From contig NZ_PNQZ01000061.1 in assembly GCF_003994335.1 (NCBI RefSeq), positions 1-64,000 of the forward strand: 64,000 bases of DNA. The letters are read 5' to 3'. The first letter of the stretch is position 1. Each line of letters starts with the position of its first letter. The DNA comes from Asaia sp. W19. Lineage in GTDB: Bacteria; Pseudomonadota; Alphaproteobacteria; Acetobacterales; Acetobacteraceae. The notes below the pieces were generated by a model. It saw nothing but the letters and a program-made list of their open reading frames with translations. It ran no database searches and was not told the DNA's origin. Positions 14,444-23,845 of this stretch are shown in pieces. The position numbers and the translations under genes are program-made.

Positions 14444-14638
14444 TCAGTGGCAGCCGCCGCCCTTACAGCCCGAGCAACCGTTGCAGCCCTTCTTTTCTCC
14501 TGAGGCAGGAAGGGCCTTGGCGAGGCCAAGCCGTGCCTTGAAAGAAGCCGCATGGGCTGGGAACAGCCTGTTCAGCCAGAACAGGAGGGCAACGGTCACA
14601 AGGGCGATGACGATAAGACTCTGCATCATGGCGATCAT
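14444..14638 (-). CDS. FeoB-associated Cys-rich membrane protein
   Basis: 64 residues from ATG 14638, which overlaps the feoB stop by 4 bases. One N-terminal transmembrane helix (about residues 6-24, IVIALVTVALLFWL) is followed by a short linker and a Cys-rich tail KGCNGCSGCKGGGCH with four Cys and a terminal His. Small proteins of this kind accompany FeoB in many bacteria and may bind iron at the cytoplasmic face. Placement at the end of feoAB supports this. A longer in-frame upstream start lies inside feoB and is rejected. Confidence 0.8.
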   Translation of the reverse strand: MIAMMQSLIVIALVTVALLFWLNRLFPAHAASFKARLGLAKALPASGEKKGCNGCSGCKGGGCH

Positions 14639-16497
14639 CCGGTCAGGGCGCGTGTCACATGATAGGTAAGAAAGGCCGCGGCATAAGCAAGGCCGAAGAG
14701 ATAGGCCGCAGCTCCCAGAACCACTTTGAGCGAGCGGGTCTCGCGACGCATGACTGCAAGAGTCGAGATGCATTGCGGCGCGTACACATACCAGGCCAGC
14801 AACGCAAAGGCGGTTGCCATGCTCCAATGCGCGCTGAGAAGCGGCATGAGCTGGTTCGCGGCATTGTCATCCGAGGCTCCCAGAGCATAGACCGTGGCCA
14901 ATGCGCTGACGGCAACCTCGCGTGCGGCCAGACCAGGAATGAGCGAGACGCAGATCTGCCAGTTGAAGCCCAGCGGCGCAAAGATGGGCAGCATGAAATG
15001 GCCGATATGGCCAGCGAGACTGTAATCGATTGCGGCGCCCGTAGCATTGGCCGGCGGCGCAGGGAAGCTGGAAAGTGCCCAGAGAAGCACATTGAGCGAG
15101 ACGATGATCGTGCCGACGCGCGACAGGAACATGATGGCCCGCTGCCAGAGCCCCAGCGCCACGCTTTTCAGATTGGGGGTGCGATAGGGAGGCAATTCGA
15201 GCATCAGGGGATGCTCGTCTGATGCAACGCCACGCGTCATGAGTCGGGCTGCGATGATGCCGCTGATAATTGCAACCAGATACAGCCCGAACAGGACCAG
15301 CCCCTGGAGCCCGAGAAAGCCGAGCACGGTGCGATGAGGCACGAAAGCCGCGATCAGCAGCGTGTAGACGGGAAGCCGCGCCGAGCACGTCATGAGCGGT
15401 GCGATCAGGATCGTCACCAGCCGGTCGCGGGGATTCTGGATCGTGCGCGCTGCCATGATGCCTGGAATGGCGCAGGCAAAGCTCGAGAGCAGCGGAATGA
15501 AGGAGCGCCCGCTCAACCCTGCAAGCGCCATGATCCTGTCGAGCAGGAAGGCTGCGCGTGGCAGGTACCCTGTTTCCTCCAGGGTGAGGATCCACAGGAA
15601 CAGGATCAGGATCTGGGGCAGGAAGACGATGACCGTTCCTGCACCCGCGATCACGCCGTCGGCCAGAAGGCTGCGCAGCAGCCCCGGAGGAAGCGGAGAG
15701 ACGACGATCTGCCCGAGCGAGGTGATGCCCGCTTCCAGCGCGTCCATGATGGGCTGGGCCCAGGCGAAGACCGTCTGGAACATGAAGAAGAGAACGACCA
15801 GAAGGATGATCGGGCCCCAGACCGGATGGAGGAACCAGCGATCGAGGCGATCGGCCATCCGGTCGCCCCTGAGCGTGCCTTCATTGGTGAAGCGGGTGAT
15901 GAGCTGGCCGACTTCACCATGGACGTCGAGGTCCGTCTTCATGGCAGGTGGCGGCAGGAATTCGGGCTGATCGAGCGCGTTCAGCAGATTGGCAATGCCG
16001 CTCTTGCGCAGGCTGATGGCGGGAATGATAGGTAGGCCAAGCGCTGCGGCGAGGCCCGGTACGTCAATGGTGAGCCCGAGTCGTTCGGCCTCGTCCATCA
16101 TGTTGAGCACCACGATCATGGGGCGGCCGAGTTGCATGAGTTCCAGCAGGAAGCGCAGATGCAGCCGCAGATTGCTGGCCGAGACGACACAGATGATCAG
16201 ATCCGGCTGCTTTTCGACCGGATGCTGCCCCATGCAGACGTCACGGGTGACGTCTTCATCCGGGCTTGTGGCACTCAGACTGTAAGCACCGGGCAGGTCG
16301 AGCAGGCGAATGGCTCTGCCATTGGGGGTCGTGAGATACCCCTCCTTGCGCTCGACCGTGACGCCCGCATAGTTCGCGACTTTCTGGCGACTACCTGTCA
16401 GCTGGTTGAACAACGAGGTCTTGCCGCAATTGGGATTGCCCACGAGGGCGGCGCGCAAGGGTCTGGTGGCCGTCTCCGGCAGTGTGACGGCGTCCAT
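14635..16497 (-). CDS. feoB: Ferrous iron transporter FeoB
   Basis: 620 residues from ATG 16497. The N-terminal G-domain has G1 GNPNCGKTS (residues 20-28), G3 DLPGAYS and G4 NMMDE. About eight membrane helices follow with the Gate segments (SFACAIPGIMAART, and SLIPGLAAREV). It is shorter than Escherichia coli FeoB (773) in its GDI/linker region, as in several alphaproteobacteria. It imports Fe(II) across the inner membrane using GTP. It lies 7 bases after feoA and overlaps the Cys-rich gene. Two overlapping Fur-like dyads upstream of feoA predict iron control. Confidence 0.95.
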   Translation of the reverse strand: MDAVTLPETATRPLRAALVGNPNCGKTSLFNQLTGSRQKVANYAGVTVERKEGYLTTPNGRAIRLLDLPGAYSLSATSPDEDVTRDVCMGQHPVEKQPDLIICVVSASNLRLHLRFLLELMQLGRPMIVVLNMMDEAERLGLTIDVPGLAAALGLPIIPAISLRKSGIANLLNALDQPEFLPPPAMKTDLDVHGEVGQLITRFTNEGTLRGDRMADRLDRWFLHPVWGPIILLVVLFFMFQTVFAWAQPIMDALEAGITSLGQIVVSPLPPGLLRSLLADGVIAGAGTVIVFLPQILILFLWILTLEETGYLPRAAFLLDRIMALAGLSGRSFIPLLSSFACAIPGIMAARTIQNPRDRLVTILIAPLMTCSARLPVYTLLIAAFVPHRTVLGFLGLQGLVLFGLYLVAIISGIIAARLMTRGVASDEHPLMLELPPYRTPNLKSVALGLWQRAIMFLSRVGTIIVSLNVLLWALSSFPAPPANATGAAIDYSLAGHIGHFMLPIFAPLGFNWQICVSLIPGLAAREVAVSALATVYALGASDDNAANQLMPLLSAHWSMATAFALLAWYVYAPQCISTLAVMRRETRSLKVVLGAAAYLFGLAYAAAFLTYHVTRALTG

Positions 16498-16504
16498 ATA
16501 CAGA

Positions 16505-16744
16505 TCAGAGATCGTGTTTGAGCGTGATACGCGAGGCCTCACCACGGCGGAGGGCAAAACAGGTCGAGCCCAGCCGCACGGCAATGGGATCGTGGCCCAC
16601 GGGGCCTGTCGCCACGATTTCGACCGGAGCACCCGGAATGAACCCCAACTCGCCCAGTCGCGTCGCGATCGGATCATTGGCCATACGCGCGACGACCTGG
16701 CTGATGACCGCGTGAGCGCCTTTGGGCAGGGTGTCGAGTGTCAT
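16505..16744 (-). CDS. feoA: Ferrous iron transport protein FeoA
   Basis: 79 residues forming one SH3-like FeoA domain, with the typical RLGELGFIPGAPVEIVATGPVG core and a C-terminal beta strand RRGEASRITL. FeoA is a small cytoplasmic partner needed for FeoB activity. It is the first gene of feoA-feoB-Cys-rich gene and carries candidate Fur sites 30-52 bases upstream of its start. Confidence 0.95.
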   Translation of the reverse strand: MTLDTLPKGAHAVISQVVARMANDPIATRLGELGFIPGAPVEIVATGPVGHDPIAVRLGSTCFALRRGEASRITLKHDL

Positions 16745-16889: not shown

Positions 16890-17204
16890 TCAGGAGGTCT
16901 CGTCGGGTTTCTCACTGCTGATAAAGGGAAACGGGCTGGGGGGCGAACTCTCCTTCCGCGCAATCGTGATGGCGGCCACGATGGCATCGCGCGCGCGAGG
17001 GCTGTTGTGCCAGCAACGTGACCCGAGATGTGCTGCGATGCGCAGGCATAAATCTTCCGGCTCATGGCGGGAAAGGGCGGACAGAGAAGCGATACCAACC
17101 TGCTCAAGACGCAGGATAACCGTGGGACCAATATGCTTTCCCCGCAGGAGTTTCAGTCTCTCGTCTGCGCTGAACTGCGGTGCGGATGGTGTATCACTGC
17201 TCAC
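16890..17204 (-). CDS. Cdd1-like helix-hairpin-helix protein
   Basis: 104 residues. The centre (about residues 18-80) matches the pathogenicity-locus/Cdd1 type of helix-hairpin-helix protein: GKHIGPTVILRLEQVGIASL, then HEPEDLCLRIAAH and a CWHNSPRARDAIVAAI helix. The C-terminus is polar and Ser/Pro rich. HhH motifs often bind DNA without sequence preference; the family's role is not established. It is monocistronic on the minus strand, upstream of the feo genes but with its own spacer of about 145 bases that carries the Fur-like sites. Confidence 0.65.
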   Translation of the reverse strand: MSSDTPSAPQFSADERLKLLRGKHIGPTVILRLEQVGIASLSALSRHEPEDLCLRIAAHLGSRCWHNSPRARDAIVAAITIARKESSPPSPFPFISSEKPDETS

Positions 17205-17480: not shown

Positions 17481-19070
17481 GTGCTTGCGCATCGCAATTC
17501 ACCTTTGAAATCGAGTAGATGTGTCTTGTCTGAACACGCACCGCACGATGTCCTGATCATTGGCGCAGGACTGGCTGGCCTCACTCTGGCGAAGCAGTTG
17601 CTCGACGCCGATCCGGCGCTTGGGATCTGTATCGTTCACAACCGCAAATTCCCGTACCCCGAGCGTATCCACAAGGTGGGAGAGTCTACCGTGGAAATCG
17701 GGGCCTATTATCTGGCGGAAATCGTGGGGTGCAAAAGACATCTCGAGACTGAGCATCTGCGCAAAATGGGGCTGCGCTTCATCCAGACGCAGGGCCTGAC
17801 CGGCGATGCCCCGTATCGCGAGATCGGGCTCGGCTATTATCCGCATCAGCCAACCTATCAGATCGATCGCGGCAAGCTGGAAAACCACCTGCGCGACGCG
17901 TTGGGGGAGCGTGTCACCCTGATCGAAAACAGCCGCGTCATGGAAATCGAGCGCGAAGGCGACCTGAATAATGTGGCGGTGCGTGACCATGACGGTGTCG
18001 TGGCACCGGTCGCAGCGCGCTGGGTCGTGGACGCCTCGGGGCGCGGGCGTGTGCTGATGAAGAAATTCGAATTGCAGCGCCCTGCGGGGATCAATCACTC
18101 AGCCATCTGGTTCCGTGTTGCGGGCAAGGTGGATATCAACGAGTTCCTGAGTTCGCAGGATGAGGCTAACCCGTTCGGTCATGCGCGCGAGCGTGGGCGG
18201 AGCACGACCCATCTGATCGGGCGAGGCTATTGGGTCTGGATCATTCCCATCAGCGAACAGACCACCAGCATCGGCATTGTTTTCGATAATGGCATCCACA
18301 GTCTTTCAGAACTGAGTTCGCATCCCCTCGCGACTTCCTGGCTCGCCAGGCATGAGCCGCGTTTCCATGCTTATATGCAGCGTGAGGCATTCGAAGTGAT
18401 CGACTTCGTGATGCTGCGCAATTACTCCTATCTGTCTGCACAGTTTCTGTCGAAAGAGGGATGGGCGCTGACCGGAGAGGCCGCAGGATTCGTTGATCCC
18501 ATGTATTCCAACGGCACGGATATGATCGGGCTGGCGAATACCATGATCACCAACGCGATTACCCAGCCCGACGGGCTGGAGCAGATCGAGCGGATGAACG
18601 GCGTCATGGCGGAGGCCTATGCCGGTTTTGTCGATACCCACAGGGAGTCCTATGCAGGTTTCGACGACTGGAACTATGTGTTCGTGAAGACGAACTGGGA
18701 TGCGACCTTCTATTTCCTTTTCATGAGTGTGCTCTTTATGAACGGCAAATTCGCCGATATCGGGTTTATCGAGAGCATCCACAGCGAGATCTCGGCTTTC
18801 TACAAGCTGCATCATCAGGTCATGACCTATCTCAGGCAGCCGGGCGCCGTTTCCGATGATTATGCATTGCCGGAATTCATCAATCTTGTCGGTTCGATAC
18901 AGGACTATGCCAATCGCTCGATTTTCCTTGCCGACAAATCGAATGACGCGGTCAGGGCCCTGCTTGAGAAAAACATGGTGATTCTGCGCGAACTGGCTGA
19001 CTCGATCATGCAGAACAAGAGCTTCGACGAGAAGTTCTTCACCATGGCGGCGAGACTCGACGCTGCCTGA
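17481..19070 (+). CDS. Flavin-dependent halogenase-like FAD oxidoreductase
   Basis: Up to 529 residues. The FAD-binding GAGLAGL is near residue 28, then HKVGESTVE (GES-T motif of halogenases and related monooxygenases), a Lys in LRKMGLRF at the place of the halogenase catalytic Lys, YQIDRGKLENHL, and WVWIIP, which fits the WxWxIP halogenase signature. A GEAAGFVDPMYSNGTDM block binds FAD. It could chlorinate or brominate an aromatic or alkyl substrate, or be a hydroxylase of the same fold. The start is unsure: GTG 17481 or TTG 17526 (MSEHAPHD, 514 residues), neither with a strong ribosome site. No flavin reductase or biosynthetic cluster is adjacent. Confidence 0.65.
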   Translation: MLAHRNSPLKSSRCVLSEHAPHDVLIIGAGLAGLTLAKQLLDADPALGICIVHNRKFPYPERIHKVGESTVEIGAYYLAEIVGCKRHLETEHLRKMGLRFIQTQGLTGDAPYREIGLGYYPHQPTYQIDRGKLENHLRDALGERVTLIENSRVMEIEREGDLNNVAVRDHDGVVAPVAARWVVDASGRGRVLMKKFELQRPAGINHSAIWFRVAGKVDINEFLSSQDEANPFGHARERGRSTTHLIGRGYWVWIIPISEQTTSIGIVFDNGIHSLSELSSHPLATSWLARHEPRFHAYMQREAFEVIDFVMLRNYSYLSAQFLSKEGWALTGEAAGFVDPMYSNGTDMIGLANTMITNAITQPDGLEQIERMNGVMAEAYAGFVDTHRESYAGFDDWNYVFVKTNWDATFYFLFMSVLFMNGKFADIGFIESIHSEISAFYKLHHQVMTYLRQPGAVSDDYALPEFINLVGSIQDYANRSIFLADKSNDAVRALLEKNMVILRELADSIMQNKSFDEKFFTMAARLDAA

Positions 19071-19260: not shown

Positions 19261-20961
19261 ATGCGGGATGAAATCGTGCGGCGCGTGCGTCAGGGAGCCG
19301 GAGCCGAGCCTGCTGATCTCGTCATACGCAATGTCAGACTTTTCGATCTGGTCACGGGGGAGCTGATCCCGACCGATATCGCCATCACGGGTGACCGGGT
19401 GGTGGGCGTTCTGGATTGCTATGAGGGGCGTGAAGTCATTGACGGTCAGGGCCGCATTGCGGTGCCTGGCTTCATCGATACGCATCTGCATGTCGAATCC
19501 TCGTTGATCACGCCCTTCGAGTTCGATCGCTGTGTGCTGCCGCATGGCGTGACCACGGCTATTTGCGACCCGCATGAAATGGCCAATGTCCTGGGGCGGG
19601 CGGCGTTCGATTATTTCCTGAACTGCGCCAATCGGACGGTGATGGATCTGCGCATCAATCTCTCGAGTTGCGTGCCCGCTACGGGGCTCGAAACCTCGGG
19701 CGCCGTACTGGATGCTGCCACGCTGGAGATCTACCGCCATAATCCGAAAGTCATCGGCCTTGCCGAGTTCATGAATTTCCCCGGTGTCCTGTCAGGGCAG
19801 CCGGATTGCCTCGACAAGCTCGTGGCGTTCGCCAATGGGCATATCGATGGTCATGCGCCTCTGCTGCGTGGCAAGAGACTGAGCGGCTATATTGCCGCCG
19901 GTATTCATACCGATCATGAGGCGACCACCGCAGCAGAGGCGCTTGAGAAGATCCGCAAGGGGATGACGATCCTTATCCGCGAGGGGTCGGTATGCAAGGA
20001 TCTGACGGCGCTTGCGCCTCTCCTTACGCCGGAAACCTCGGCTTTTCTGGCATTTTGCACCGATGACCGGAATCCGATGGAAATTGCCCATGAAGGGCAT
20101 ATCGACTTCCTCATTCGCAAGGCCATCTCGCTCGGAGTTGCGCCGCTCGCAGCGTATCGGGCGGCGTCCCTTACGGCAGCAAGGGCCTTTGGCCTGCGTG
20201 ATCGGGGTCAGATCGCCCCGGGGCTTCGCGCCGATATCGTGCTGCTTGATGATCTGGAGCGCTGTGCCGTTGCTCAGGTCTTTTCGGCCGGGCGTCTCGT
20301 GAATGATGCGCTGTTTGCCAGCCGGGATATCGTACCACCGCAAGGCTATGGTTCTGTGAAGCTCGCCGCCCCGATCGCGGCCACGGATTTTCATGTGCCG
20401 GGGACCGGGCAGAACCAGGCTGTGATCGGTATCATTCCGGATCAGATCATCACGGAGTTTCGCCGGGCGACTCTCGACGTGACAGAGAACGGCGTCCAGC
20501 CAGACCCGCAACGTGATATTGCCAAGATCTGCGTGGTCGCGCGCCATGGCAAGAACGGCAATATCGGGCGCGGTTTCGTGCAGGGCTTCGGTCTTTCCAC
20601 GGGTGCGCTCGCCTCTTCCGTCGGCCATGACAGCCACAATCTTTGCGTGGTGGGCATGAATGATGTCGATATGGCTCTGGCGATCGCACGATTGACCGAA
20701 ATGGGGGGTGGGTTCGTCGCTGTTCGGCAAGGCAAGATCGTGGCTGAGCTGGCGCTGCCCATAGCAGGGCTGATGAGCGATCAGCCCTTCGAGACTGTCA
20801 GACGAAATCTGGAATCCCTTCGTGAAGCGGTGCGTGACATGGGCGGAAGCCTGGAAGAACCTTTCCTGCAACTGGCTTTCCTGCCGTTGCCGGTCATTCC
20901 CCATCTGAAGATCACCGATCTCGGGATGATTGATGTGGACACGATGAGCCTCGTTTCCTGA
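19261..20961 (+). CDS. ade: Adenine deaminase
   Basis: 566 residues, normal for Ade/AdeC (about 570-590). Amidohydrolase metal motifs are [14 protein letters not shown] and [37 protein letters not shown] and [10 protein letters not shown] follow, and the adenine-deaminase C-terminal domain has [20 protein letters not shown] (split here as two family blocks). It deaminates adenine to hypoxanthine and ammonia in the cytoplasm, feeding the xdhABC products at 8.9-13.7 kb. It is monocistronic, with a strong hairpin after the stop. Confidence 0.93.
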
Positions 20962-21019
20962 CGCGCCTCACAGGAAGCGTATCGGGGCCGTCTCTGTGAG
21001 CGCCCAAAGCGGAACACGA

Positions 21020-21042
21020 CCCCGCGCCCGAGAGGCGCGGGG
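21020..21042. terminator. Bidirectional terminator between ade and oprB-like gene
   Basis: CCCCGCGCC (21020-21028), loop CGAGA, GGCGCGGGG (21034-21042): a perfect 9-bp stem placed between convergent genes. Confidence 0.65.
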
Positions 21043-21050
21043 ATATGGGC

Positions 21051-22568
21051 TCAGAAATTGGTTGTGAACTGCCCGCCGATGATGGCAGCATCGTTGAAGG
21101 TGGTTGTGGCTCCGGGATGTTGCAGATACTGGAAGTCGAATTGCAGCGCTGTCGCCGCGGCCAGATGCAGGCTGTAGAAGGCTTCATAGACCTGCTCCCA
21201 ACGCTGCACCCCGTAGACATTCCCCCATTGATTGGAGACGAAAGGCAGACCGAGCGCGACGGAGGATTCCTGTTGCAGACGCACGGAGCGGCTCATGGTC
21301 ATATGCTGGAACATGACACCAATCTGGTCGAGCGGGCGATGCCAGGGCGTGCCACTCTGCAACAAGCCGATCCATTCATGATCACGCATGGCAACGACAT
21401 TGCCTTGTGCGTAGCCGAGTCCGCCGATCACGATCAGACCATCCGCCAGGCCCTTGCCGCTGCGTACCAGCATCTGGTCGAACATGAGCCAGCTGGACCA
21501 CATGCCCGAGGCATTGCGGGCGGGCAGACCGCTCGCCTGGTAGGAGCCGCCATAACGATCCTCGTAAAGATGAGGATAGCGCGAATTGTCGTAATAAAAG
21601 CCGATCTTGTAATGGCCGAGCAGCTTGTCCTTGCCGAAAGCCGGGTCCCAGCCTGCCTCGAATTGCGAGCTCAGCTTCCCTAACCCGTCCTGCGCGAGTG
21701 CCCAGCCTGACACGCCGCCATTGAAGGCGTGGGGGCTGACGGCAAAGAGCCCGCCCATCAGATAGGTGCGCTCGGTGGGGCGGACACGCAGCACGGCGCC
21801 AATATTGGCAGACGGCCAGTCGCGGCCGCCAGGCGCATATTTGCCGGGTGCAAAATTACCGCAAACGCTGACATTCATGAAGGAGCAGGCGAGCGCATCG
21901 AAATCGAAGAATGTTCCGGTCGGGATGACACCGGCCGAGACCACGATCCGATCATGCAGAAAGGTCTTGTCGGCATACATCGAGACGAGATGCGCGACGA
22001 CATTGCCGCGCGAGCCGTAGATCTGCTCAGGGTTTGAGACATAATCTCCCAGGGAATAGCTGAAATTCCGCCCATGGCCGTTCACGACCAGAAGATGGGT
22101 CCAGAAGCCCTGAAAGCCTGCGAGCTTCTGCCAGTCGATGTCCAGTTCTGCGGCGACCTGACCGGCCAGGACATTGTCGCGTGTCCGCCCGCCTGTGACA
22201 TTGCCCATATATTCCTCGTTAAGGGCAATATTGAGGAAGATACCGCGGTTTTGCATCCAGCTCTGGGCGCCGCCCCAATCACCGAAAAGATGCGGATTGC
22301 CGTAGAGCGACGGCACGAGAGGGCCGATGGGCACAGCGCCCTGGCCCGCGATCGGAAAACCGATGGCCTTATAGTCATCGCCCTCAAGCGTCTTGGCGGT
22401 TTCGGACTGAGCCTGAGCGTAGGACGTTATGGTCCCGCCGCAAAAGGCGGCAAGGGCGAGGGCGGTCCACACCCCGCGCCCACCGCCCTTGCGCGGAATT
22501 CTTCCCGCTCGGGTTTTGGGGCGGCGGGCGGAATGCAGGTCCCGATCGTTGGCGATCTCTCTTGTCAC
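21051..22568 (-). CDS. OprB family carbohydrate-selective porin
   Basis: 505 residues from GTG 22568; the frame is open further upstream but that part lacks sense. A long basic N-terminus precedes a signal core (VWTALALAAFCGG...YAQAQ). The mature protein shows the OprB pattern: NPHLFGDWGGAQSWMQNRGI, NEEYMGNVTGG, NVLAGQVAAELDIDW, and it ends in Phe (GGQFTTNF), as outer-membrane barrels do. It probably admits sugars, here GlcNAc oligomers judging by the nagP-nagA genes just upstream on the same strand. A 146-base leader after nagA may carry its own promoter. Confidence 0.85.
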   Translation of the reverse strand: MTREIANDRDLHSARRPKTRAGRIPRKGGGRGVWTALALAAFCGGTITSYAQAQSETAKTLEGDDYKAIGFPIAGQGAVPIGPLVPSLYGNPHLFGDWGGAQSWMQNRGIFLNIALNEEYMGNVTGGRTRDNVLAGQVAAELDIDWQKLAGFQGFWTHLLVVNGHGRNFSYSLGDYVSNPEQIYGSRGNVVAHLVSMYADKTFLHDRIVVSAGVIPTGTFFDFDALACSFMNVSVCGNFAPGKYAPGGRDWPSANIGAVLRVRPTERTYLMGGLFAVSPHAFNGGVSGWALAQDGLGKLSSQFEAGWDPAFGKDKLLGHYKIGFYYDNSRYPHLYEDRYGGSYQASGLPARNASGMWSSWLMFDQMLVRSGKGLADGLIVIGGLGYAQGNVVAMRDHEWIGLLQSGTPWHRPLDQIGVMFQHMTMSRSVRLQQESSVALGLPFVSNQWGNVYGVQRWEQVYEAFYSLHLAAATALQFDFQYLQHPGATTTFNDAAIIGGQFTTNF

Positions 22569-22714
22569 TATCGTTTCGTCCAGATTTCTTGCGTGAGTGC
22601 CCGGATGGGCCAGTGACAGAGGGATTAACAGAAAGTCATAATGGAGCAACACCACGGGCAACTACAAAACTACGTGTGATATTGTTACAAAAGGGTGATA
22701 GGATTGAGCCCTAT

Positions 22715-23845
22715 TTAACGAGACTGCGGCGTTCTCTCATGGACCTTGCGCCCGTTCACCCATACTTGCTCGATATCCAGATCCCGATTGAGGACGACGA
22801 GATCGGCCAGACGCCCCGGCGTCAGGCTGCCGCGATCGGCGAGGCCGAGATAGCGGGCCGGGTTGGTGCTCACCAGCTTGCTGGCCTCGCTCAGCGACGC
22901 ACCATGCGTCACCGCGTTGCGCACTGCCTGGTCGAGGGTGAGGATGCTGCCCGCCAGCGAGCCATTGGGCAGGCGTACGACGCCCTCACGAATGAGGACC
23001 TCCTGGCCGCCGAGTGTGCTTGGCCCGTCGGGTTGCCCGGCCCCCCTCATGGCATCGGTCACAAAGAGCAGCCGCTCCCTCATGATACGTGAAGCGAGCC
23101 GAAAACTGGCCGGATGCACGTGATGTGTATCGAAGATCATCTCGGCATAGCTGGTGTCATGGCACATCAGCGCGGTCACGGGGCCGGGATTGCGGCCTTC
23201 GATGGCCGACATGGCATTGAACAGATGGGTGCCCCCCGCCACGCCACCACAGCTACAGATGCGATTCAGGGCGGCCCAACTCACCTCGAAATCGGCGGTG
23301 GTATGGCCGATACTGACCCGGACGCCCGCGTCCGCAAAAATCCTCATGGCTTCGTCGGCGTGATCGATCTCGGGGGCGAGGGTGACGACACGGACGCAGT
23401 CACGCGCCAGAATTTCGGCAAGGCGCTCTGGTGTGGGGGCGATCGTGAATGGCGGCTGGGCGCCGAGTTTATGCGGGCTGACGAAGGGGCCCTCAAGATG
23501 CACCCCATGGATGCGGGAGCCATCCTCATCGGGGGTATTCATCACTGAGGCGGCGCTGTCGAGCGCGTAAAGCACGTCCTCCCAGGGGCGGGTGATGGTC
23601 GTGGGCAGAATGGTCGTGGTCCCGTGCTTCATGTGGAACCGCGCCATGTGGCGTATGGCTTCGGGTCCATCCATTGTGTCGGCGTCATCGCCGCCATGCA
23701 CATGTCCGTCGATGAAGCCAGGGAGAATGAAGAAGGGGGCATCGGCCCCGTTCTTGTCGATGGCCCTGACATGCGTATCGAAATGAAGCGTGCCGGCCAC
23801 GATCCGATCAGGGAGTACGATCTGGCCAGCAAGTTTTTCGGTCAT
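22715..23845 (-). CDS. nagA: N-acetylglucosamine-6-phosphate deacetylase
   Basis: 376 residues, normal for NagA. Amidohydrolase motifs are PGFIDGHVHGGDDADTMDG (HxHGG), HLEGPFVSP with the metal-binding Glu, SIGHTTAD, HLFNAMS and the catalytic Asp in FVTDAMRGAG. It makes glucosamine-6-phosphate and acetate. It follows nagP with a 4-base gap, so they share a transcript, and feeds NagB encoded at 30.1 kb. Confidence 0.93.
   Translation of the reverse strand: MTEKLAGQIVLPDRIVAGTLHFDTHVRAIDKNGADAPFFILPGFIDGHVHGGDDADTMDGPEAIRHMARFHMKHGTTTILPTTITRPWEDVLYALDSAASVMNTPDEDGSRIHGVHLEGPFVSPHKLGAQPPFTIAPTPERLAEILARDCVRVVTLAPEIDHADEAMRIFADAGVRVSIGHTTADFEVSWAALNRICSCGGVAGGTHLFNAMSAIEGRNPGPVTALMCHDTSYAEMIFDTHHVHPASFRLASRIMRERLLFVTDAMRGAGQPDGPSTLGGQEVLIREGVVRLPNGSLAGSILTLDQAVRNAVTHGASLSEASKLVSTNPARYLGLADRGSLTPGRLADLVVLNRDLDIEQVWVNGRKVHERTPQSR

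Follow-up and report, generated by a model that had tools for sequence, protein, structure and literature searches.

A conserved stand-alone flavin-dependent halogenase-like enzyme in Asaia and its relatives

Introduction

What reaction does a halogenase-like enzyme carry out when its gene stands apart from any biosynthetic pathway? The question is raised by a gene of Asaia sp. W19, a member of a genus that is culturable and open to manipulation. The gene lies in a stretch of 64,000 nucleotides (hereafter the window) within one contig of the assembly (C191). A first-pass annotation of this DNA had described an orphan flavin-dependent halogenase-like enzyme whose substrate and product could be new. 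Halogenases are wanted for clean chemistry, and most have been found by way of a known product.

In the mechanism described for these enzymes, FADH2, O2 and halide give HOX, the WxW element bars the substrate from the flavin and a Lys holds HOX (PMC10696468). Acetic acid bacteria are described as inhabitants of flowers, fruits and insects (PMC8776678), and tryptophan 7-halogenase has been listed as a predicted function in hive samples (PMC9637708). In the passages searched, the literature on Asaia and halogenases makes no mention of the gene, and none of the matches listed in a search for halogenated metabolites covers Asaia or acetic acid bacteria.

Results

Gene model and selection

The open frame spans 529 amino acids at window positions 17481-19070 on the plus strand, with a GTG at 17481. 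It contains the motifs quoted in the first-pass annotation, and to that extent the earlier gene model stands; its start probably does not. In six Asaia genomes the matches start at residue 19 or 20 of this frame; they start at residue 15 in G016, a genome of another genus, and at residue 6 in Asaia krungthepensis (L011, genome G005), where the TTG equivalent to 17526 is the first start codon of the frame. Read by eye, the same TTG is present in L013, L014 and L016, and a GTG takes its place in L012. Because of where the matches begin in the relatives and of the first start codon in L011, we take TTG 17526 as the most likely start, which gives a predicted protein of 514 amino acids. Residues are numbered from this codon.

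17526..19070 (stop codon included), plus strand: halogenase-like coding sequence with TTG start, 514 amino acids, from start-codon comparison with Asaia relatives
17510..17525, plus strand: putative leader with a weak ribosome-binding-like cgag ahead of the start, assigned by eye

The leaders of the window and of five other Asaia sequences are alike by eye, not identical. Promoter and terminator scans gave no excess over shuffles.

Compared with A. krungthepensis, the gene has a dN of 0.132 and a dS of 1.309. The resulting ratio of about 0.1, which is like that of the neighbouring adenine deaminase gene (dN 0.149, dS 1.675), indicates purifying selection, and the frame is therefore more than a chance one. 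The gene itself is the single match to the protein in its genome (E up to 0.001), and the named loci that it matched are six, all from Asaia. The assembly (3.9 Mb, 228 contigs) is estimated to be 8% contaminated; since the gene order around the gene agrees with that of other Asaia, the window is not a stray contig. A foreign origin of the gene was considered and set aside: its GC content is 56% versus 60-63% for three neighbours and the window, and its third-position GC lies inside the range of the neighbours.

Membership in the halogenase superfamily

The protein matches the Pfam family Trp_halogenase (PF04820) with an E-value of 3.6e-11 and 43 bits, against a cut-off of 21, and PF04820 was matched in all 20 members of the family that we assembled, query included. 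A profile of these 20 rows was searched against solved chains. Among the best 60 of its 103 matches, the 19 best chains (E <= 7e-16) are halogenases with a single exception, 3nix, an uncharacterised flavoprotein/dehydrogenase; the count goes by the label of each chain and, in the case of ChlB4 and "Alkylhalidase CmlS", by its name. The halogenases include PltA, ChlB4, CmlS, tetracycline 7-halogenase, RadH and PltM. The first flavoenzyme of another kind followed at 1.7e-7, further from the profile than the halogenases, and the archaeal protein 4opu, which we take to be a geranylgeranyl-type reductase, at 7.3e-7. With the single sequence as query, 3nix ranked first (3.3e-18), followed by 8zop, 3e1t (presumably CndH) and PltA.

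The best NCBIfam model was that of CmlS (NF033113), at 59.4 bits versus a cut-off of 900. The models of QhpG (NF049967; 49.9 bits, cut-off 240) and geranylgeranyl reductase (TIGR02032; 45.5 bits, cut-off 158.8) came next, and those of GoxB and LodB (35 and 33 bits) were far under their cut-offs. By these scores, membership of the Asaia enzyme in the halogenase superfamily is clear and no curated subfamily accepts it. PF04820, the motifs described below and the ranking of halogenase structures by the family profile thus agree with the halogenase-like identity first proposed. A place among geranylgeranyl reductases or hydroxylases, named at the time as the alternative, is disfavoured by the profile search and the model scores; the trees alone do not settle this point. 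An AlphaFold model built from six Asaia sequences (mean pLDDT 56.6, pTM 0.48) was too poor for reading the pocket.

Conserved motifs and predicted active site

The family alignment comprises 20 rows, the query and 19 relatives; the Asaia platycodi sequence (L015), in which the gene is split, was omitted from the alignments. A comparison alignment adds two UbiH-like rows and 13 rows of other halogenases, made up of six solved chains including 3nix, two PrnA-type and five aryl-polyene-type sequences. The elements considered are as follows, with their conservation in the family alignment.

17562..17579, plus strand: GAGLAG, the GxGxxG FAD-binding motif (G13, G15, G18); G13 and G15 in 19 of 20 rows, G18 in 18
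17676..17687, plus strand: VGES (V51-S54); G52 and E53 in all 20 rows, S54 in 18
17763..17765, plus strand: K80, predicted catalytic lysine in LRKMGLRF; Lys in all 20 rows
18108..18116, plus strand: WFR (W195, R197); Trp and Arg in all 20 rows
18231..18248, plus strand: WVWIIP, the WxWxIP motif (W236-P241); both Trp in all 20 rows, Pro in 16
18402..18404, plus strand: D293 in VIDF, conserved in the clade; all 20 rows
18489..18515, plus strand: FVDPMYSNG, the Fx.Px.Sx.G motif, with D324 before P325, and Tyr327; D324, P325, S328 and G330 in all 20 rows, F322 in 17

Ten residues are invariant in all 20 rows (K80, W195, R197, W236, W238, D293, D324, P325, S328 and G330), and the lone gap at G13 and G15 is a row (L042) whose chosen coordinates omit that part. 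GAGLAG and the Lys of LRKMGLRF are kept, as the first-pass annotation claimed, and so is VGES. The catalytic Lys is not lost in any of the family rows; its column holds Lys in 13/13 other halogenase rows and Leu in both UbiH-like rows. Both Trp of WxWxIP are present in all 13 other halogenases and in neither UbiH-like row. The WxWxIP signature reported at first pass is present in the Asaia sequences, but it is not universal in the clade, its last Pro being Arg in four of the 20 rows. These four (L008, L044, L047 and L048) come from three genera and offer a natural test of the role of that Pro.

Two further elements are invariant in the family rows. In the WFR columns, the other halogenases have Arg in none of 13 rows and Trp in two, and Arg is present in both UbiH-like rows; on this alignment, W.R is a mark of the clade among the halogenases compared. 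Asp in the D293 column occurs in one of the 13 (L073).

The Fx.Px.Sx.G motif is used here as quoted in PMC7336383 and PMC12645471. In the model of the halogenase CHEESY1, Lys79 holds HOX with the help of an Asp beside the Pro of this third motif, a place printed as N307 as well as D307 (PMC12645471); D324 would occupy a like place, matched by motif and not by alignment. The Tyr327 column holds Tyr in 17, Phe in two and Asn in one of the family rows. The essential Glu of PrnA is named as E346 (PMC5945002), and the two PrnA-type enzymes of relatives that stand in for PrnA itself in our alignment (L073 and L076) carry Glu at the position of Tyr327. The catalytic Glu raised in the first-pass annotation is thus replaced by Tyr327, and a PrnA-type tryptophan halogenase identity was rejected; because the PrnA-type Glu is absent, PrnA is the wrong model for the Asaia enzyme.

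Phylogenetic position

In a 23-row tree, the query groups with 14 relatives in a single clade (support 98/97), apart from six solved chains and two UbiH-like rows. The clade holds again (99/99) in a 29-row tree to which PrnA-type and aryl-polyene-type rows were added and from which L053 was dropped for its long branch. This second tree joins the clade weakly (77/85) to the PrnA-type rows and places the UbiH-like rows amid the solved halogenases, and the branches concerned are all very long. As outgroup the trees hold a single kind of enzyme, the UbiH-like one, whose two rows sit on a very long branch, and no geranylgeranyl reductase. The clade is separate in both trees, whose deeper branches do not fix its sister group. 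Within it, the acetic acid bacterial enzymes form one group (95/89) and those of Janthinobacterium, Gloeothece and the genomes G475, G534 and G443 another (99/97). Identity to the query is 21-25% for the six solved chains and 14% for the UbiH-like rows. To our knowledge, no member of the clade has been characterised.

Distribution and gene neighbourhood

The gene is present in eight of nine Asaia genomes. In one of them, A. platycodi (L015, G008), it lies in two frames, and as several neighbours are split as well, sequencing errors are likely there. No relative was found in genome G003 (E up to 1e-20), where the contig stops 226 bases short of the adenine deaminase gene and this remnant gives no match. 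The gene is absent from this assembly, a loss not being proven. In a draw of the family Acetobacteraceae the gene was found in 18 of 299 genomes and 6 of 102 genera (E up to 1e-40), and a phylum draw of 398 genomes gave six carriers, three of them outside the family. Nine plasmid records matched, all below 60% identity (32% for the first-ranked), and of 30 stretches of a viral collection that fitted a pattern, none encodes a relative.

The gene is flanked in the window as follows.

16890..17204, minus strand: small divergent gene, weakly Cdd1-like (PF11731, 16.7 bits, cut-off 25.5)
19261..20961, plus strand: adenine deaminase, the downstream neighbour (TIGR01178, 590 bits)

The "DNA-binding-like gene" of the first-pass annotation is thus Cdd1-like only weakly and below the cut-off, and its "purine gene" is an adenine deaminase, encoded on the same strand as the enzyme 190 bases away. 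With these two genes as flanks, the orphan position claimed for the enzyme holds, and no pathway, carrier protein or transporter gene adjoins it in Asaia. The gene order around the enzyme is common to L011, L012, L015 and L016, to which the neighbour comparison applies (L013 and L014 being covered as far as matches were listed), and is largely that of G016 also. The adenine deaminase lies downstream in all five. The Cdd1-like gene recurs next to that of the enzyme in L011, L015, L016 and L008; for L012 no match to it was listed.

Four further genera of the family show the same orphan position as far as their nearest searched neighbours tell, and these neighbours differ. The gene lies with genes for a creatininase, a beta-propeller protein, DsbD and DUF2721 in g86, for a sulfate permease and a Cys/Met enzyme in g65, for a phosphodiesterase and an AmiA-like amidase in g125, and for an FAD_binding_3 protein and a pseudouridine synthase in g57, with no pathway-like genes among the ten neighbours searched. 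Outside the family the picture is different. Directly upstream of the gene in L051 stand those for a ketosynthase and a Ketoacyl-synt_2 protein, together with one for a family-2 glycosyltransferase. Other members lie near a type I polyketide synthase in L017 and near an AMP-binding enzyme in L052. A 4-hydroxyphenylacetate 3-monooxygenase gene in L018, and an amidase and oxidoreductases in L053, accompany a halogenase-like gene.

Three side observations arose from these comparisons. Against A. krungthepensis (L011), the window is 97% identical at the gene 14635-16677 and 80-81% identical at the small gene, the halogenase-like gene and the adenine deaminase gene. Third-position identity drops from 0.91 at the first of these to 0.80, 0.55 and 0.45 at the other three, and proteins further right in the window are 76-91% identical. 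This step looks as if a recombination breakpoint lay near 17000.

On the Methylorubrum plasmid pMPPM04 (L053:6426-12784), genes for a methyltransferase, an FAD-binding oxidoreductase, the halogenase-like enzyme, the amidase and an NAD(P)H-dependent oxidoreductase form a compact run that looks, from its gene content, like a small halogenation pathway with its own reductase.

Three unrelated bacteria carry a Na+/H+ exchanger gene (PF00999) next to their halogenase-like gene or two genes away (L050:10968-12224, minus strand; L017:10362-11663, plus strand; L053:12823-14019, plus strand), and none was found beside the acetic acid bacterial genes searched. A halogenase and a Na+/H+ exchanger are reported together in the arcuflavin (PMC3949708) and chloramphenicol (PMC4249514) clusters; the exchanger is perhaps an ion or halide supply partner of the halogenase.

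Candidate reductase and proposed mechanism

The first-pass annotation found no flavin reductase, and this is right for the adjacent genes. A single PF01613 flavin reductase is encoded elsewhere in the genome, on a separate contig; it is most like RutF and HpaC, scores below the cut-offs of both and is a candidate, unlinked partner. One PF01613 reductase each was found in the carriers G016, G203 and G271, and none in G093 and G230, though both have the halogenase-like gene.

With the superfamily, the motifs and their conservation, the orphan position and the purifying selection read from the sequences themselves, we think that the Asaia enzyme is probably a two-component flavin-dependent halogenase from a separate clade, served by an unlinked reductase and acting on a small molecule that is probably aromatic. 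Under this proposal, FADH2 would be supplied by a flavin reductase encoded elsewhere, and the enzyme would form C4a-hydroperoxyflavin with O2. Halide attack on this intermediate would give HOX, which would pass behind the WxW wall to K80, perhaps aided by D324, and there halogenate an electron-rich, probably aromatic, small molecule. Halogen transfer, the partner reductase and the aromatic substrate are the predicted parts of this scheme; the substrate would be either free or the product of a pathway encoded elsewhere.

Alternative functions

One candidate role is the tailoring of an aryl-polyene pigment by a halogenase whose gene lies apart from the pigment cluster. A probable halogenase is reported among the genes linked to the aryl-polyene synthase in Acetobacteraceae clusters (PMC8776678), and the clade of the query includes the L051 enzyme, beside xanthomonadin-like genes. 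The distribution of the ketosynthase family PF13723 (Ketoacyl-synt_2) argues otherwise. PF13723 is found in none of the seven Asaia genomes of the draw (G000-G006, this one included), nor in G016, and is absent also from G008, hence from all eight Asaia genomes other than that of Asaia astilbis (G007). It occurs in 5 of the 18 genomes of the family draw with the gene, compared with 114 of 299 overall, and in four of those five it lies on a different contig, in the fifth about 164 kb away. When PF04820 was searched at 1e-8 in the 60 nearest genomes, at least 12 family genomes outside Asaia were matched; such counts are lower bounds, this search having matched three of nine Asaia genomes (G002, G006 and G007) and missed the window's own gene. 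All 12 also have PF13723, less than 3 kb from PF04820 in five, about 13 kb away in one and on other contigs in six. The halogenases found with PF13723 in other Acetobacteraceae belong to a different clade in the 29-row tree, where the five aryl-polyene-type sequences stand apart and are 19-23% identical to the query; the label rests on proximity to PF13723 in G033 (<3 kb) and G032 (about 13 kb), the other three, on contigs without PF13723, being grouped with them by sequence. A. astilbis carries one enzyme of each clade: its PF13723-linked enzyme best matches the aryl-polyene-type L079 (57%), and its stand-alone gene is on another contig. By sequence, the stand-alone and the aryl-polyene halogenases of Asaia are separate lines. 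The aryl-polyene reading is thus largely refuted for this genome, and we hold it to be very improbable.

Of more weight is a flavin-dependent monooxygenase (hydroxylase) on a halogenase fold, QhpG-like, with an aromatic small molecule or a side chain of a peptide as substrate. The channel of QhpG, a hydroxylase similar to CmlS, contains two Trp, Trp181 and Trp183 (PMC7876137). QhpG shows that a similar fold can hydroxylate, so WxW alone is no proof of halogenation. The query draws some score from the QhpG, GoxB and LodB models and from that of geranylgeranyl reductase, and Arg replaces the last Pro of WxWxIP in some rows. All of these scores are nevertheless far below cut-off, K80, D324 and the S.G motif never vary in the family, and the family profile puts halogenase structures first. 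Since neither tree nests the clade within the halogenases, we regard a hydroxylase as unlikely rather than negligible. As for a joint role with the neighbouring adenine deaminase in purine breakdown, the two genes lie together on one strand in Asaia and in another genus (G016), but the gap of 190 bases is long and no adenine deaminase was found in four enzyme carriers (G093, G203, G230 and G271; E up to 1e-50). We know of no purine halogenase of this kind, and give this role hardly any credence.

Apart from these alternatives, the A. astilbis locus is of interest in itself. On contig C33 at 19709-23524 (L077, L085), it joins an aryl-polyene ketosynthase domain to a halogenase-like gene 2.3 kb away, and may reflect either a recent gain or repeated loss elsewhere in Asaia.

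Discussion

We favour a two-component halogenase for the Asaia gene, for which, as first suggested, a new substrate and product are possible. A wider proposal, that Asaia and some further acetic acid bacteria keep a pathway-free halogenase clade which acts on one shared small aromatic and makes a halogenated signal or antimicrobial, is tentative, and we consider it more doubtful than not. If it is true, a shared aromatic from plant, nectar, insect or primary metabolism would be halogenated in sugar-rich niches. The Asaia product, once found, would show whether acetic acid bacteria make halogenated compounds.

Among known systems, one close setting is that of xanthomonadin. L050 and L051 belong to the clade of the query in both trees (31 and 33% identity) and share its motifs, WFR and DF among them. 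Ketosynthase genes adjoin L051 but not the Asaia gene, whose genome lacks PF13723. Xanthomonadin clusters are reported to hold a halogenase gene in a setting like that of L051, and their pigments to be brominated (PMC3691225); L051 is called xanthomonadin-type from its neighbours, the alignment holding no Xanthomonas enzyme. PltA, ChlB4, CmlS and 3e1t share the catalytic Lys, WxWxIP and DP..S.G with the query and likewise have no PrnA-type Glu, but they lie outside the clade (21-23% identity) and have neither the WFR Arg nor the DF Asp. The aryl-polyene halogenases of Acetobacteraceae share the superfamily and the bacterial family of the query but belong to another clade. QhpG, with its CmlS-like fold and two channel Trp, hydroxylates a Trp in a peptide (PMC7876137), and the query falls well short of its model (49.9 of 240 bits).

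The first-pass annotation held free-standing halogenases to be little known, a view that others already in print overturn. BrvH and three Xanthomonas (Xcc) enzymes, whose natural substrates are given as unknown, act on indoles (PMC5945002, PMC7336383). CHEESY1, from a bacterium of salty food and likewise without a known natural substrate, is placed by its authors in a phenol clade, and they state that many halogenases lie apart from clusters (PMC12645471). All of these were found by motif or genome search and are active on test substrates (PMC5945002, PMC7336383, PMC12645471); we liken them to the Asaia enzyme by description, not by alignment or tree. Stand-alone halogenases are thus already known, and the Asaia clade, as far as its sequences tell, is a further and well-conserved case.
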